Assembly: GCA_014376935.1 (NCBI GenBank)
Contig: JACMQO010000080.1
Coordinates: 1 to 58,108, forward strand
Direction of reading: 5' to 3'
DNA: 58,108 nt
Source of the DNA: Bdellovibrio sp.
GTDB lineage: Bacteria; Bdellovibrionota; Bdellovibrionia; Bdellovibrionales; Bdellovibrionaceae
Part shown: positions 51,164 through 58,108 of the stretch, piece by piece
Numbering within the stretch: the first letter of the stretch is position 1
How the letters are laid out: the number at the start of each line of letters is the position of its first letter
Made by a program: the position numbers and the translations under genes
The notes under the pieces: model-generated
What the model saw: only the letters and a program-made list of their open reading frames with translations
What the model was told of the DNA's origin: nothing
Databases searched by the model: none

Positions 51164-52192
51164 GTGAAAAATAATGTCCTTTTTCAAAGTCATTTACCCA
51201 CACGAAACCAGTTTCCGGTTGAAAGCGTTTTATTTTACGATCAAATCCTAGACTCGAAACCTTTTTTTAAAAAATGGAAAAAAGGTTTTCAGTACCAAAT
51301 GCCTCTGAAAGCCGGAGAATCTTTAAAAACCCTAGAGTCGTTGCAAAAAGTCTTGAAAAAATTAAGCCGCATGAGCTTACCCCAGACTACGCAATTAACT
51401 TTCATTGCAGTCGGTGGCGGTAGCGTCGGCGATTTCGTTGGCTTCTTATCAAGCATATTTTTGAGAGGCCGCATATTTGTGCAAATTCCTTCAACATGGT
51501 TAGCGGCGATCGACTCGGCTCACGGTGGAAAAAACGCCTTAAATTTTGATCATCAAAAGAATCAATTGGGCACTGTTTACACGGCCCATAGAGTTTATAT
51601 CGTTCATCAGTTGTTAACCGCCCAGCCGCAAGTGCGTTTGAACGAAGCGATGGGTGAAGTCATTAAAATGGGTGTGATCAATTCACCTCATTTATTTGAA
51701 CAGGTCGAATCTAATGAAGACGATTTTAAAGAAAAAAATCTAATCTCTATTTTACCTCAATTGATCGCCGCAAAAATGAAAGTCGTTCAAACCGATCTAT
51801 ACGAAACAAAGGGTTTACGGCGTGTATTGAACCTAGGGCACACGATGGGGCACGTTTTTGAAAGTCATTATAAAATGGCTCACGGAGAGGCCGTTCTTTT
51901 CGGAACGTTATTCGCGGCCCGTTTTAGCTTTCATCTGGGTCTTTTAAAAGAAAATGATTTTATTCGAATTTCAAATTTAATTTTCTCGTTCACTTCGAAA
52001 AATTCAATGCAAAATCTTTTACAAAAAATGAAGCGCGCGCAGATTCAAAAACTTTTATTAAAAGATAAAAAAGTAACAGCAGAAAATGTAATGGATTTTA
52101 TTTTCATTAAAAAAATAGGGTTCGTTATTCGCCAAAAAGTTTCGGTTCAAAAAATACTAGACGAAGTTGAAAGACAAGCGACAGAGTTTTAA
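51164..52192 (+). CDS. aroB: 3-Dehydroquinate synthase
   Basis: AroB closes the first ring of the shikimate pathway. The NAD loop GGGSVGDFVGFLSSIFLRG is present, as are QIPSTWLAAIDSAHGGKNAL and the metal-binding histidines in RRVLNLGHTMGHVFESH and MAHGEAVLFG. At 342 residues it is of usual length. The start is GTG. The next gene carries three further pathway steps and starts 26 bp after its stop. Confidence 0.94.
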   Translation: MKNNVLFQSHLPTRNQFPVESVLFYDQILDSKPFFKKWKKGFQYQMPLKAGESLKTLESLQKVLKKLSRMSLPQTTQLTFIAVGGGSVGDFVGFLSSIFLRGRIFVQIPSTWLAAIDSAHGGKNALNFDHQKNQLGTVYTAHRVYIVHQLLTAQPQVRLNEAMGEVIKMGVINSPHLFEQVESNEDDFKEKNLISILPQLIAAKMKVVQTDLYETKGLRRVLNLGHTMGHVFESHYKMAHGEAVLFGTLFAARFSFHLGLLKENDFIRISNLIFSFTSKNSMQNLLQKMKRAQIQKLLLKDKKVTAENVMDFIFIKKIGFVIRQKVSVQKILDEVERQATEF

Positions 52193-52218: not shown

Positions 52219-53985
52219 ATGAAAAAAGTCATCATCGGTCACAGAGGCGTCGGCAAAACATCTTTTCTAAAAAGGCACCAGACCTATTGTAAACAACTAG
52301 GAATCGACGCGGTCCATTTTGATTTAGACGAGCAAATCGAACTGTCTGAAAAACAAAGCATCCGAAATATCTTTAAAGATAAAGGCGAAGCCTATTTTCG
52401 CGAACTTGAAGAATCTATTTTTAAAAAATTGACCTCAGAAAATTCATCTTACGTGATTAGTTTGGGTGCGGGGTTCAATTTAAAAAGAATTTCGAACGAG
52501 AATGAAGTTTTACTATTAAGCCGTTTGACCGATAAATCGGGTCGTATTTTTTTAAATCGACCAAGGTTGAATCCGGATGAAAGCCCACTTGAAGAGTACA
52601 AGCAGCGCTACTTAGAACGTAACGAAAAATTTTTAGACAAGGCAACGCAGTTATATTCAATGCCTGAGGGTATTGAAGCTGAAAATGAAACAGAAAAGAA
52701 AATTGTTACGGGCGAATTTTTTATTGATGATGCTTTTTACACTTTAACTGAAAAAGAAATTTCGAACTTAGATTATCTGAAAGCTAGATACAAAGTGATC
52801 GAGCTGCGCACAGATTTAATTAGTCTTGAAAAAATTGTAAACGTTGTGCAGGCCGACTGTGACAAGGAATGGCTTATTTCGGTTCGACGAAACGAAAAAG
52901 TTCCTGAATTTGCGAACGCACGCTACGATTTTGATATCGAGCTTCCGCATAAGCCCAGCTTTTTTGCCAAAAATAAACGTAACATTATTTCTTGTCATAC
53001 AGATCAAATCGATCAGGCCTTGAAGCAGGTGCAAGATATTAAAGATTATCACGTTAAGCTAAGCCCCGCGGTTGAATCCTTTGATGATTTAATAAAAGGA
53101 TACAACTGGCAGCAAGTAGACTCTAGAAACAGAAGTTTTTTACCACGTTCAAAAAATGGTAAATGGATGTGGTACCGCCAGATGGCAAAATACCTTCAAG
53201 AAATTAATTTTATTCGTAATTTTACTTTCTTAAAAGATCAGCCTTCGAAATATCAGTGGCTATCATTACCCTTAGAAAGACCCAATCGCTTCGCTGCCGT
53301 TTTAGGAAAGCCCGTTCTTTTTTCTAGAAGTCCCGAGGCCCATAAATCTTTCTTTGCGAACAAAAGCACGTTCTTTACCGCGATTGAAATCGATGAAACT
53401 GAACTGCAGAAGAATTATAAATGGCTCAAGTCTGTGGGGCTGACTTATGCGGCGGTAACGGCTCCGTTAAAAAAAGTGGCTTATTCAATATCAACTGAAA
53501 GTGACGACAATTCTAAAAAATTTGAATCGGTCAACACCCTTTACTTAACCGGAACAAAAGTGATTAGTTATAATACTGATATTTTTGGCTTTCAGAATTT
53601 AATGAAAGAAGTGACATTAAGAAAAGATGAAACCGTAGCTGTTTGGGGCGGCGGTGGAACCTTGCATATGATGCAATCCGTGCTACCCGATGCCATCTAT
53701 ATGTCGTCGCAAACGGCACTTCAGCGCGATGGAACAGATGTCTCAGATTTGAAGCCTTCGGTATTAGTTTGGGCGGCTCCACGTCATGCCGATACCCAGT
53801 GGCCGCCTGTTGGGTGGAAGCCGGCCTTGGTTGTAGATTTAAACTACGTTGAAAACTCAATGGGATTAGAATACGCGCAAAAAAAGAATCTAAATTATAT
53901 TTCGGGTTTAAAGATGTTTCAGATTCAAGCGCTAGAGCAAAAGAAGTTTTGGAATAAAGTTTCCGAAACTTCCTTTGTTATATAG
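52219..53985 (+). CDS. Shikimate kinase / dehydroquinase / shikimate dehydrogenase fusion
   Basis: Three shikimate domains lie in one 588-residue chain. Residues 1-165 are shikimate kinase (Walker A GHRGVGKTS, FDLDEQIE, GEAYFRELE). Residues about 185-345 resemble type I 3-dehydroquinase, with VIELRTD (Glu195, Arg197), FDIELP, SCHTD (His260) and YHVKLSP (Lys280, the Schiff-base position). Residues about 356-588 are shikimate dehydrogenase (FSRSPEAH, VTAPLK with Lys418, SVNT, YNTD with Asp454, WGGGGT, SGLKMFQIQALEQ). With aroB in front, the order matches fungal AROM except that EPSP synthase is missing. The middle domain is divergent, so its activity is less certain. Confidence 0.85.
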   Translation: MKKVIIGHRGVGKTSFLKRHQTYCKQLGIDAVHFDLDEQIELSEKQSIRNIFKDKGEAYFRELEESIFKKLTSENSSYVISLGAGFNLKRISNENEVLLLSRLTDKSGRIFLNRPRLNPDESPLEEYKQRYLERNEKFLDKATQLYSMPEGIEAENETEKKIVTGEFFIDDAFYTLTEKEISNLDYLKARYKVIELRTDLISLEKIVNVVQADCDKEWLISVRRNEKVPEFANARYDFDIELPHKPSFFAKNKRNIISCHTDQIDQALKQVQDIKDYHVKLSPAVESFDDLIKGYNWQQVDSRNRSFLPRSKNGKWMWYRQMAKYLQEINFIRNFTFLKDQPSKYQWLSLPLERPNRFAAVLGKPVLFSRSPEAHKSFFANKSTFFTAIEIDETELQKNYKWLKSVGLTYAAVTAPLKKVAYSISTESDDNSKKFESVNTLYLTGTKVISYNTDIFGFQNLMKEVTLRKDETVAVWGGGGTLHMMQSVLPDAIYMSSQTALQRDGTDVSDLKPSVLVWAAPRHADTQWPPVGWKPALVVDLNYVENSMGLEYAQKKNLNYISGLKMFQIQALEQKKFWNKVSETSFVI

Positions 53986-55218
53986 TTACGGGCAACTTTC
54001 GATATTCATCAGAACAGAGATCTTTTTAATTTGTGAAGTATTCGCAAGAATACTTTCCGAACCGGTCGTAGTTTGACTGATTACTTTTGAAGTTAAAGTG
54101 TTACTGGTGTTAAGGCGAATCATTTCGGTGGTTCCGCAGCCTGAAGTTAACACATCTGTCTTTCTAAATAAGAAGCTGCGCTCGTCAGAACCTAGGGTAA
54201 TAACCTTAGCGTTCGACGGTTTAATGGTTCCCGCAATGAAAGCTTCAAACTTAATACTTGATGTGGTTTGAAGTTGACCTATTCGGGGAGAAACAACACC
54301 TTGTAGATCAATCAACGAAATGACCAGACGTTTTCCTTTTGGTAACTTGACAGGAATCGCTAGGCTGCAGGCTTTGTTATCGACTAAACGATTCGTATCA
54401 TTTTGCGTGATATAGTTACTTAATGAAATTTCTAACGAATTTTTTGTTAAATCCAGTTCGGTGTAAATTTCTTTTTTCTGTGCCGAACAACCGCTACCAT
54501 TTGAAGCGACGCTTGATAGATCAAATAGCGATTGTATAGAATCGCCTTCAATCATCGGAATCAATGGGACCAAGCGGGTTGCTAATCGAAACGAATTTGG
54601 AATTTGTATCAGATCAGTCGAAATAACGTAATTATCATCATTGACCGAAGCGCTACGAAGTAATTCATGAAAAACTAAATATTGAATATTTCTTTCTTTT
54701 TCAAAGTGCTCTAACCATGCTGAACTATTTAATATAATTAAGCCTGGAATACCAATGGCGTCAACGACAGATCCTGTGTCGTCGAATAAGGTTTCATCCG
54801 TTAAGACAACACGGTTAATATCTAAAGCCGCCTTTAAATCATCCGTATTTAAATTGTTTTTACGAACAATCGTGTTTCCTGCTTCGGTCGTTAAAACATA
54901 CTCAAGAGCTTTTTTTCCGACTTGAATAAATGTCGAACGAATGTAGTCGCCGCCATTTCCAACCTTGTGGCCGATGATATCGATGCGATCGACTTTGAAT
55001 TGGCCGTTCGCACTTCGAATTAATTTAATACTGTCGGGTATAATATAGCCGCGGTTGTCGACAACAATCACGTTTTTCGCGGGAGCCGCGGGTGGAGTTG
55101 TATTGATAACTCCGGGCTTAATATTTAAGGCTTGAGATAAAGTGGTTTGCGAGGCGTGCGCCAGATTTGTAAATAGAGCAGTTGTCATTAAAATCGAAGA
55201 AAAATATTTACTTTTCAT
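53986..55218 (-). CDS. Secreted protein with C-terminal DUF4360-like domain
   Basis: A signal peptide (MKSKYFSSILMTTALFTNLA) leads to an N-terminal region with LVFHELLRSASVNDDNYVIS, which recalls a degenerate HExxH site (Arg in place of the last His). From about residue 245 (ASNGSGCSAQKKEI) to the end is a cysteine-bearing domain with ACSLAIPVKLPKGKRLVISL and SSIKFEAFIAGTI. It is related in pattern to the 185-residue protein at 56118-56675. The gene overlaps the regulator gene upstream by 11 nt, a clear sign of co-translation. Function unknown. Confidence 0.7.
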   Translation of the reverse strand: MKSKYFSSILMTTALFTNLAHASQTTLSQALNIKPGVINTTPPAAPAKNVIVVDNRGYIIPDSIKLIRSANGQFKVDRIDIIGHKVGNGGDYIRSTFIQVGKKALEYVLTTEAGNTIVRKNNLNTDDLKAALDINRVVLTDETLFDDTGSVVDAIGIPGLIILNSSAWLEHFEKERNIQYLVFHELLRSASVNDDNYVISTDLIQIPNSFRLATRLVPLIPMIEGDSIQSLFDLSSVASNGSGCSAQKKEIYTELDLTKNSLEISLSNYITQNDTNRLVDNKACSLAIPVKLPKGKRLVISLIDLQGVVSPRIGQLQTTSSIKFEAFIAGTIKPSNAKVITLGSDERSFLFRKTDVLTSGCGTTEMIRLNTSNTLTSKVISQTTTGSESILANTSQIKKISVLMNIESCP

Positions 55219-56023
55219 AGAGGTCCTCGTTCGCTGGGTGTGTTAACGGATAAATATAAAACGTCATTTTATAAACTTCACTTTTTTCACCGTCTTCTAA
55301 AAACTGCGTCAGTGAATCTTGAAATTCACGAATCATGCGTTTTGCTTCTGGCAACTTATTTTTATCAGCGGCAATCGTAACGGCCGTAAAATCGCGGTCT
55401 TCGACATTGACTTCATCTAATGCTTTTTCGGCTAATTTTAGATCGTTGTAGTGCGATTTTCGAATCGCCGCATCGCAGACATTGTCAGTAGTGATCATTG
55501 GGCCGCCCAATGGAATAAAACGGTTATATTTTTTAGTAATAAGTTTTAAATCCGTTAGACGAATAATCGTTTTTTGTAATTCGTGAAGGCTTAGCGAAAG
55601 GCGAGTCGCCATCCACGGTAAATCAGAAATAAAAGTCACCGTTTCCATTAATGATAATAAGGCAAAGTGCTGCCATTCGCTGATCAGGCTGAATTCATCG
55701 GCTCGTAACTTTAAAAAGTCGATATTTTTTTTGTATTTAATTAACGCTAATTTGCTGCTTGCAGGTTCGACCGTACCTTTTTTTAAAGGTTCAAATTGCG
55801 AAAGTAAGTTTTGAATTTCGGTGGGCTCAATCTGCATGCGATCCAAAATGCGTAAAGCCATTTTTTTTGAAATCTTACGTTTACCGGCGATAATTTCGCT
55901 TAAGGCGCTGGGGCTTAGCTGTAATTTTTTGGCAAAGGCGCGCATCGAAAATGCGGGATTCTTCCGCTGTAAAATTTCGAATTCAGAGCGAATTTTTGTT
56001 TGAATTGCGATTTGTTCATTCAT
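55208..56023 (-). CDS. TIGR02147-family regulator
   Basis: The N-terminal HTH (NPAFSMRAFAKKLQLSPSAL, SEIIAGKRKISKKMALRILD) belongs to the XRE-like type. The remaining 200 residues have the helical layout of TIGR02147 proteins (LKLRADEFSLISEWQHFALL, LSLHELQKTIIRLTDLKLI, AEKALDEVNVEDRDFTAVTI and KRMIREFQDSLTQFLED). The family is common in Bdellovibrio and Fibrobacter and uncharacterised. It sits between two DUF4360-like secreted genes on the same strand and is likely their dedicated regulator. Confidence 0.85.
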   Translation of the reverse strand: MNEQIAIQTKIRSEFEILQRKNPAFSMRAFAKKLQLSPSALSEIIAGKRKISKKMALRILDRMQIEPTEIQNLLSQFEPLKKGTVEPASSKLALIKYKKNIDFLKLRADEFSLISEWQHFALLSLMETVTFISDLPWMATRLSLSLHELQKTIIRLTDLKLITKKYNRFIPLGGPMITTDNVCDAAIRKSHYNDLKLAEKALDEVNVEDRDFTAVTIAADKNKLPEAKRMIREFQDSLTQFLEDGEKSEVYKMTFYIYPLTHPANEDLYEK

Positions 56024-56117: not shown

Positions 56118-56675
56118 TTAGTGACATGGCACCAGTCGTAAAGTGATTTGCGATTTGTTAATGGCTAGTTTTGACGAAGTCGCCGGTGCCGCCAATTGCG
56201 CAGTCGCACTTAAATTAAGTCGTAAAATAGTATCTTGTCCGCAGGCCGATTTCACTAATGTGTTCGCGGAGTTCAGTTTACCTAAGGTAAATAATCGATT
56301 CGTCTCAGTTAAGATGGCCGCTTGCGGAACGCCTCTTAATCCCGCTAAAAATAATTCTTGTGATAGGGCTACGCGATCTTTCACCTGTAAGCGCGATAGA
56401 CCTGAAGAAACCGCTGAAGCCAATAATTGAAAACCATCAGGCACGTTGACCGGCACCGCAACTGCGCAAGTGCTGCGAACAAGTGTTCTAGAGCCGTCGG
56501 CTTGAAGTTGAAATTGAGGGTAGACGATCGTGACGCCGCCTGAATTCACAGACACTTTGATATTGCTATTCAAGCAACCTGAACCGCCCGAAGTCACTGC
56601 GCCGATTTGTGAAAGTTGGGCTTGTGCTGCCATCGTTAAAACTAATGTTGCTAACGCCGTGATAAGATTTTTCAT
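56118..56675 (-). CDS. Secreted DUF4360-like protein
   Basis: A signal peptide (MKNLITALATLVLTMAAQAQ) is followed by one DUF4360-like domain: TSGGSGCLNSNIKVSVNSGG, STCAVAVPVNVPDGFQLLAS, and KSACGQDTILRLNLSA. The four cysteines (three in these motifs and one at the C-terminus) are placed as in the C-terminal half of the larger protein at 53986-55218. Probably a disulfide-bonded extracellular or periplasmic protein. First gene of the three-gene cluster; the regulator follows after 94 bp. Confidence 0.7.
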   Translation of the reverse strand: MKNLITALATLVLTMAAQAQLSQIGAVTSGGSGCLNSNIKVSVNSGGVTIVYPQFQLQADGSRTLVRSTCAVAVPVNVPDGFQLLASAVSSGLSRLQVKDRVALSQELFLAGLRGVPQAAILTETNRLFTLGKLNSANTLVKSACGQDTILRLNLSATAQLAAPATSSKLAINKSQITLRLVPCH

Positions 56676-56750
56676 AAATTCCCCCTAGTTTGACTGAGTG
56701 GTTCAGTCTTGTTGTTGATTTAGGTTTAGCCGGGCCGGTTAGTCTTGGCT

Positions 56751-56783
56751 ATCTATTTTGGAACAAAGTGTTCCAAAATAGAT
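56751..56783. promoter_or_regulatory. Perfect 33-bp palindrome, candidate operator
   Basis: Two perfect 15-bp arms, ATCTATTTTGGAACA (56751-56765) and TGTTCCAAAATAGAT (56769-56783), flank the centre AAG. The element lies in the spacer between the divergent DUF4360/TIGR02147 cluster and the lipoprotein gene. It has no T-tract and is not at a gene 3' end, so an operator is more likely than a terminator. Confidence 0.6.
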
Positions 56784-56903
56784 TTGGACTGCTTCTATCA
56801 TGTAAAATGAATCGTGCGAGGGGTGACGATTAAAGGCGCTGTTCGGGTTATAGACGTTCGTAACGTCCTGACTTCATTCTGAAAGGGAGTCTAAATTGCA
56901 AAG

Positions 56904-58108
56904 ATGTCATTTATGAAAACATATCAAATCTTGGTCGTAAAAGTTGTTTCTTACCTAGCAGTTTTGGCCTTAATGCAAAGCTGTGCGAAGCCCACAGATT
57001 CTGGTTTGTTAACCGGAGTTCATACCGATAACACAAAAGCCCAAGAGACTGACCAGCAAGTGCTCGAGCGAATTCAAAAAGAACAAGCGAGGCAAAATCC
57101 AATTCCAGCTAATTCGATCAGCGAAAAAATGACACGTGTGAAAACTGCAGATGATAAAAAAGAAGAAAATAAAACTGTTGTTGTTTTGCCGGCAGTGCCG
57201 ACTACACCTGCACCCGTCGCGAAAGCTGCCGAGAATAAAGTTGAAGCGTGCGTCAATTACACAAATCTTAAATTAGAAAAAGTTGATTACATCGGTGTAA
57301 AATCGCCAGAACAAATCAAGATCGAACAATCAAAAAGAATCGCAAGCAAAGATAAAAAAGATAAGACAGATATCGCAAAAAATGCGATTTCAAAAGACAC
57401 TGAAAGTATTAAGGCGTCGAAAAATACGTATTTAACATTTAAAGATTTAGTCGGTTTAAATAAGATCTCGGATTCAGCCGCGGTGGTTTTTAGAACGAAA
57501 ATCGCCGAAGAAAAATCGGCGTTACCTTTGCTGGCGCGTAGCAACGAAAACACCTATTGCCGCATTGAAGGAGCTTCATCTTTTGCCGCGGGCGATGCTT
57601 TGACTTTTTCAAGCCAAGCTAAAATGTTAATTAGTAAAAGTTTTGATATTTATGAAGACCGCTTAGAATTTGTAAATGCCAATGGAAATTTGTCTTTGAT
57701 TTGTACGCATACAACGGTGGGATTGTTTATTGAAGAAGTCGCAAAAAATTTAGCGGCCTATATCACATTAACCACAGATAACGTCGCGATCAACGGCAGT
57801 CAATTTGTGAATCCATTTACTCAAACTCGAATGTTAAATGCATTCCAGATTTTAGATGTGGCAAAGATGAATCAGATCACGATGTCTGCTAATCCGAACG
57901 ATGTGCTTACGACTGAAAACAAGTCGATTTGTAAAGTCACCCAAAAGATGGGTCAGTACGATCTGAATAAAACGTACTTTAAAGTGGCTACAGGTCCGTT
58001 GGTTAAATCAGCAGACGGTCAAACAAGAATTGAATCGTCAGTCTATCAGGCGGATAAAAATAATTTTTTCGTGATGGCCTGTCAGTTTTCAGCTGAGGTA
58101 AATTCTGA
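56904..58108 (+). CDS. Large lipoprotein, unknown, cut by the window end
   Basis: The frame opens at ATG 56904 and stays open to the last base, so only the first 401 codons are seen. A lipobox (VLALMQSC) shows a lipoprotein; an inner ATG at 56913 begins a more compact signal. A Lys/Glu/Pro-rich linker of about 100 residues follows, then two similar modules: NTYCRIEGASSFAAGDALTF to SLICTH, and SICKVTQKMGQYDLNKTYFK to FVMACQF, each with a leading and trailing cysteine. No family recognised. GGGAG lies 15 bases upstream, a long spacing. Confidence 0.72.
   Translation, partial: MSFMKTYQILVVKVVSYLAVLALMQSCAKPTDSGLLTGVHTDNTKAQETDQQVLERIQKEQARQNPIPANSISEKMTRVKTADDKKEENKTVVVLPAVPTTPAPVAKAAENKVEACVNYTNLKLEKVDYIGVKSPEQIKIEQSKRIASKDKKDKTDIAKNAISKDTESIKASKNTYLTFKDLVGLNKISDSAAVVFRTKIAEEKSALPLLARSNENTYCRIEGASSFAAGDALTFSSQAKMLISKSFDIYEDRLEFVNANGNLSLICTHTTVGLFIEEVAKNLAAYITLTTDNVAINGSQFVNPFTQTRMLNAFQILDVAKMNQITMSANPNDVLTTENKSICKVTQKMGQYDLNKTYFKVATGPLVKSADGQTRIESSVYQADKNNFFVMACQFSAEVNS

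Follow-up and report, generated by a model that had tools for sequence, protein, structure and literature searches.

The CI and Cro proteins of 434 and lambda carry a Cro/CI-type helix-turn-helix (HTH) domain (Pfam HTH_3) and act at two-fold symmetric operators. The TIGR02147 regulators considered here resemble them in both respects, but have a C-terminal DUF4423 domain rather than a LexA-like peptidase, and their putative operator has a 3-nt center, CA/TG borders and a polar extra upstream half-site. Streptococcal ComR/Rgg proteins and their ComR-box likewise pair an HTH with a larger C-terminal domain, but share no evident sequence relationship with TIGR02147, differ in operator spacing and come from a different bacterial phylum; DUF4423 is not known to be a peptide-binding TPR domain. 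By sequence, the nearest solved structures are those of HigA antitoxins, with the similarity confined to the HTH (2icp, E 0.03). Identity with a HigA antitoxin was nonetheless rejected, given a TIGR02607 score of 29.6 bits (below the cut-off of 47.7), DUF4360 genes as neighbors with no toxin gene, and the additional DUF4423. Finally, the Bdellovibrio bacteriovorus LexA motif, TTAC-N3-GTAA (PMC8565304), is an N3-centered palindrome from the same bacterial group, but its half-site differs and the regulator described here is not LexA.

TIGR02147 and PF14394 were not found in the literature searched, which left most subscription papers outside so that absence is not proof, and DUF4423 was found once, in a proteome table. 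This agrees with the first-pass annotation of the locus, which could name no operator for the family.

The palindrome and its gene neighborhood

The window (the whole 58,108-nt stretch of DNA analyzed) contains a perfect palindrome, ATCTATTTTGGAACA AAG TGTTCCAAAATAGAT, whose arms are 100% complementary (Table 1). No other perfect short-spacer inverted repeat in the window is as long, the runners-up being imperfect or overlapping, and the chance expectation for a 15+3+15 palindrome in 58 kb is ~5e-5 (58,108 x 4^-15). The palindrome lies in the 228-bp spacer (56676-56903) that separates two divergent ORFs, with no T-run after either arm and no gene end nearby. The arms, center and spacer, as well as the lack of a T-run and of a nearby gene end, had been described in the first pass and were confirmed from the letters. 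The part common to orthologous sites is only TTTGGAACA-N3-TGTTCCAAA, the outer ATCTA/TAGAT arms of the window not being conserved. This core lies 92 nt before the first gene and has a CA-N3-TG center upstream of the regulator's operon; as GGAACA-N3-TGTTCC, it occurs in a single copy in the 3.27-Mb source genome.

Table 1 Features around the palindrome (window coordinates)
Feature	Position	Strand	Remarks
Secreted 410-aa protein, C-terminal DUF4360, N-terminal GNGGD motif	53986..55218	-	Gene overlaps regulator gene
TIGR02147 regulator (HTH_3 + DUF4423)	55208..56023	-	Recognition helix S37-E43 (SPSALSE)
Secreted DUF4360 protein	56118..56675	-	First gene of putatively controlled operon; PF14273 51.0 bits, cut-off 27
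Predicted -10 element TAAACC	56723..56728	-	17 nt after -35; weak match; predicted transcription start near 56716
Predicted -35 element TAGCCA	56746..56751	-	+16 from operator center; family spacing consensus; weak match
Perfect palindrome, 33 bp	56751..56783	.	15-nt arms + 3-nt center
Putative core operator TGGAACA-CTT-TGTTCCA	56759..56775	-	Reading toward cassette; conserved in 6/6 related cassettes with upstream DNA
Degenerate accessory upstream half-site AGTCCA	56785..56790	-	10 nt before left arm; GTTCCA in the other five cassettes
Divergent putative lipoprotein gene	56904..58108	+	Runs off window; not a conserved neighbor

The genes on either side matched the first-pass description of a TIGR02147 cluster and a divergent lipoprotein gene. 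The regulator scored 107.6 bits against TIGR02147 (NCBIfam cut-off 50) and 122.9 bits against Pfam PF14394 (cut-off 30), both above the curated cut-offs, and is thus a member of the TIGR02147/DUF4423 family. Its gene sits between two DUF4360 genes, all three on the minus strand. The divergent ORF has a lipobox-like LMQSC and, because it is not a conserved neighbor, probably lies outside the regulated unit. Beyond the cluster, a 588-aa ORF (52219-53985) with a shikimate kinase-like N-terminus and a shikimate dehydrogenase-like C-terminus comes after an AroB-like gene (51164-52192) and is apparently a fused aromatic-pathway enzyme.

Exact sites in related genomes

The first-pass annotation had proposed looking for further TGGAACA-N3-TGTTCCA sites beside TIGR02147 genes. 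Our search took in 66 genomes from the family and 141 from the order, and returned 16 exact sites in 15 genomes. Twelve of the 16, from three families, preceded a TIGR02147 gene or an operon that includes such a gene: seven in the family of the window (the window itself, G045, G050, G051 with two, G053 and G057) and the others in two further families (G085, G092, G094, G106 and G114). The remaining four were in G008, in G036 and before guaB in G081 and G093, a number within the background set by a reversed control pattern, which matched six genomes.

The exact site in G008 (L048:7247) is found where a LysR-type regulator gene begins; no TIGR02147 gene is nearby, and the site is probably due to chance. 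The cores upstream of guaB (L057:6172 in G081 and L059:2775 in G093) have a lexA-imuA-imuB-like cluster a few kb away; their conserved position in two related genomes suggests that they are a further target or serve a different regulator.

The nearest relatives are Pseudobdellovibrio MAGs and Bdellovibrio sp. qaytius. Upstream DNA was available for six cassettes (those of the window, G045, G050, G051, G053 and G057), and in these the first DUF4360 ORF starts 70-98 nt after the palindrome. The G054 cassette was left out as uninformative, its contig starting inside the cassette. In all six, palindrome and DUF4360-TIGR02147-DUF4360 genes stay together while the genes across the spacer vary, so the site belongs to the cassette and not to the lipoprotein gene. 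G051 has an extra DUF4360 gene, and each of the two DUF4360 genes is preceded by its own site; the operator copy of this tandem duplicate (L044:6139-7709) has an ACC center and a direct-repeat half-site. DUF4360 itself was rejected as the partner of the site: most DUF4360 genes elsewhere are without an exact site, and sites also precede TIGR02147 genes that have no DUF4360 neighbor.

A probable shared operator type

We scanned the DNA upstream of TIGR02147 genes for palindromes, using no predefined motif, and saw an excess at 3-nt spacing. Palindromes with a 3-nt center and arms of at least 7 preceded 26 of 98 TIGR02147 genes, compared with 1.8 in shuffles, and 37 of 166 compared with 4.5 in Markov sequences; the same scan upstream of neighboring genes, some of which share sites with TIGR02147 genes, gave 11.6 per 166. 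A CA...TG center was present in 27 of the 37 innermost-unpaired palindromes at 3-nt spacing and in 0-5 at other spacings. In an enlarged set, 83 of the 297 TIGR02147 genes had a CA-N3-TG palindrome upstream, compared with 2-12 for each other inner dinucleotide, and the center read along the operon was mostly CTT (33 of 83 sites). The arms vary among paralogues (CGGAACA, CGAAACA, CGCAACA, CGGGACA, TGTAACA, TGCTACA, GTCCACA and GGACTCA), and different paralogues within one genome have different sites. Based on about 300 relatives, a single operator type appears to be used across the TIGR02147 family in predatory bacteria.

A recognizable N3 palindrome within 260 nt was seen for only ~28% of TIGR02147 genes, leaving ~70% without one; some of the latter have 1- or 2-nt centers and some show nothing, and for others control may come from the start of an operon that begins farther upstream. 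A shorter-centered site, TGAAACA-C-TGTTTCA or one with a 2-nt center, often doubled, goes with regulators whose helix is SPAQLSQ or SPGQMSQ. These sites lie upstream of TIGR02147 genes in L023, L037, L093, L110 and L118 and represent a spacing variant of the operator. With respect to gene order, 256 of 295 TIGR02147 genes are followed by a same-strand gene within 60 nt, 189 of them overlapping or abutting, and 120 of the 256 genes directly downstream have a GNG[GD] motif (GNGGD/GNGDD) near the N-terminus, marking a common cargo family without a Pfam name here.

Promoter geometry

When sites were aligned on the operator center, 25 of 61 had TTG at +16, against a mean of 1.4 elsewhere, and 24 of the 61 had TA at +39. 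Read as -35 and -10 elements with 17-nt spacing, these put the operator center at about -51, immediately before the -35. An extra upstream half-site accompanied 58 of 77 sites, compared with an expectation of 9.5, and the gap measured 6-8 or 12-13 nt, while the downstream mirror position held a half-site in only 10. The window has its own predicted -35, -10 and accessory half-site at the family positions, but as weak matches. The nonpalindromic CTT center and the -35/-10 spacing indicate that the site is directed toward the DUF4360-TIGR02147-DUF4360 cassette. Reading the GGAAC of the palindrome as an ECF-type -35 was dropped because the conserved -35/-10 pair is downstream of the palindrome.

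Covariation of recognition helix and operator

Next, we ranked the mutual information between each of 241 protein columns and the half-site bases against permutations. With 45 representatives sharing <45% identity, E43 came first (z 6.9), followed by S39, E127, P38 and A40. With 58 representatives, the order was E43 (8.7), S39 (7.1), A40 (5.5), S37 (5.4), F212 (5.0) and P38 (4.6) among the 241 columns, although the F212, T179 and E127 columns also rank high and the covariation is partly ancestry, which was reduced but not removed. The covarying residues 37-40 and 43 form the recognition helix and align with contact positions 27-30 and 33 of the 434 repressor. Because sites were chosen without the outer arm bases, this covariation is not circular.

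Of the 30 representatives at <45% identity that have an acidic residue 43, 26 carried G at -6, compared to 2 of 28 for other residues (Fisher p 4e-10); C accompanied Arg/Lys in 7 of 11 cases, and A accompanied Gln in 5 of 8. Glu/Asp-C, Arg/Lys-G and Gln-A are classic amino acid-base pairings, and the TIGR02147 pairings match them on the complementary strand. Between nearest relatives by the C-terminal domain alone, the -6/-5 bases changed in 26 of 29 cases when the residue-43 class changed and in 18 of 60 when it did not (contrast p 8e-8). The window, with E43 and TGGAACA, has the half-site expected for an acidic residue 43.

A separate collection scan later yielded 78 loci, 53 of them new and 15 of those with a recognizable site. 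Loci fitting the residue-43 expectation included L349 and L358 (LSE, TGGAACA), L325 (LSD, CGGAACA), L346 (LSK, GTCCACA) and L335 (LSK, AACCACA); L342 and L350 (LSK, GGACACA) have C at -5, yet A at -6. Co-occurrence of site and gene, fixed promoter spacing and helix-base covariation are direct results of the sequence statistics.

Discussion

The palindrome is very probably the operator of the TIGR02147 regulator encoded beside it. By analogy with other Cro/CI-type HTH proteins, each subunit of a dimer would insert its recognition helix (residues 37-43) into one TGGAACA half-site, where Glu43 would read base pair -6 from the center and residues 37-40 the adjoining pairs. The site would be directly upstream of the -35 of the minus-strand operon promoter and, as it adjoins that element, the regulator would control its own operon and with it two secreted proteins. 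We consider this proposal as a whole (operator, dimer reading the half-sites and control of its own operon) highly probable, with binding itself, dimerization and the sign of activation inferred from the patterns above. The first-pass suggestion that the palindrome is the target of this regulator is therefore strongly supported, both by the exact sites beside TIGR02147 genes and by the helix-base covariation.

A global regulator or LexA-like repressor could instead read the palindrome, with the TIGR02147 gene a mere neighbor, and a few sites do lie elsewhere (guaB in G081 and G093, the LysR gene in G008); nonetheless, the stray sites do not exceed the control-pattern background, it is with the TIGR02147 recognition helix that the operator bases covary and paralogues in one genome differ in site, making this reading very improbable. 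A LexA box in particular was rejected, as TTAC-N3-GTAA half-sites are absent from the window palindrome and the DNA upstream of lexA in G081 showed no TGGAACA-type palindrome. The 15 perfect pairs and 3-nt loop could also form an RNA hairpin (a terminator, attenuator or 5'-UTR structure), but orthologous cassettes keep the core while their outer arms drift without compensation, and the site is upstream of the inferred promoter and hence outside the cassette transcript. Together with the missing T-run and gene end, this leaves the hairpin with almost no probability; an intrinsic terminator was likewise rejected, the palindrome lying between two gene starts.

More weight attaches to two readings that keep the operator. 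Control of both sides, as claimed in the first pass, would have the site act on the divergent lipoprotein gene as well as on the DUF4360 operon, in keeping with its place in a shared spacer and with weak plus-strand promoter-like hexamers with TATCAT or TAAAAT. We consider it unlikely, since the divergent gene varies in relatives and the CTT center and promoter spacing point toward the cassette, and that part of the earlier claim was not borne out. Alternatively, the regulator could be an autorepressor that binds beside the -35, hinders RNA polymerase and is freed by a signal. Repression of their own operons is common among XRE-type regulators, and several family promoters have a near-consensus -10 (for example, TATAAC and TATATT). 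However, the sites overlap neither -35 nor -10, the center being 16 nt before the -35, accessory half-sites are found upstream far more than downstream, and the -35 hexamers are weak (TTGCG, TAGCC), a layout usual for an activator. Autorepression is thus possible but rather doubtful, and from the position near -51 and the polar layout we lean modestly toward activation.

TIGR02147/DUF4423 regulators were present in 127 of the 144 Bdellovibrionota genomes searched, with up to ~40 copies in one. We suggest, with confidence a little short of even, that each paralogue is an autoregulated activator with a private operator, its specificity residing in a few recognition-helix residues while the CA-N3-TG scaffold stays fixed, and that each switches an adjacent secreted-protein gene independently, giving orthogonal, readable addresses. 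The DUF4360 protein Bd1399 of B. bacteriovorus, whose structure and predation links have been described, was the sole protein common to a predation-upregulated and a predation-required set (PMC10792529). The present comparison links the TIGR02147 regulators to secreted DUF4360-type proteins, of which the window cargo comprises two. It also supplies a putative operator, the geometry of its promoter and a code relating residue to base that single-residue swaps can test, and this code would let the regulons of many uncharacterized TIGR02147 paralogues be predicted from sequence.
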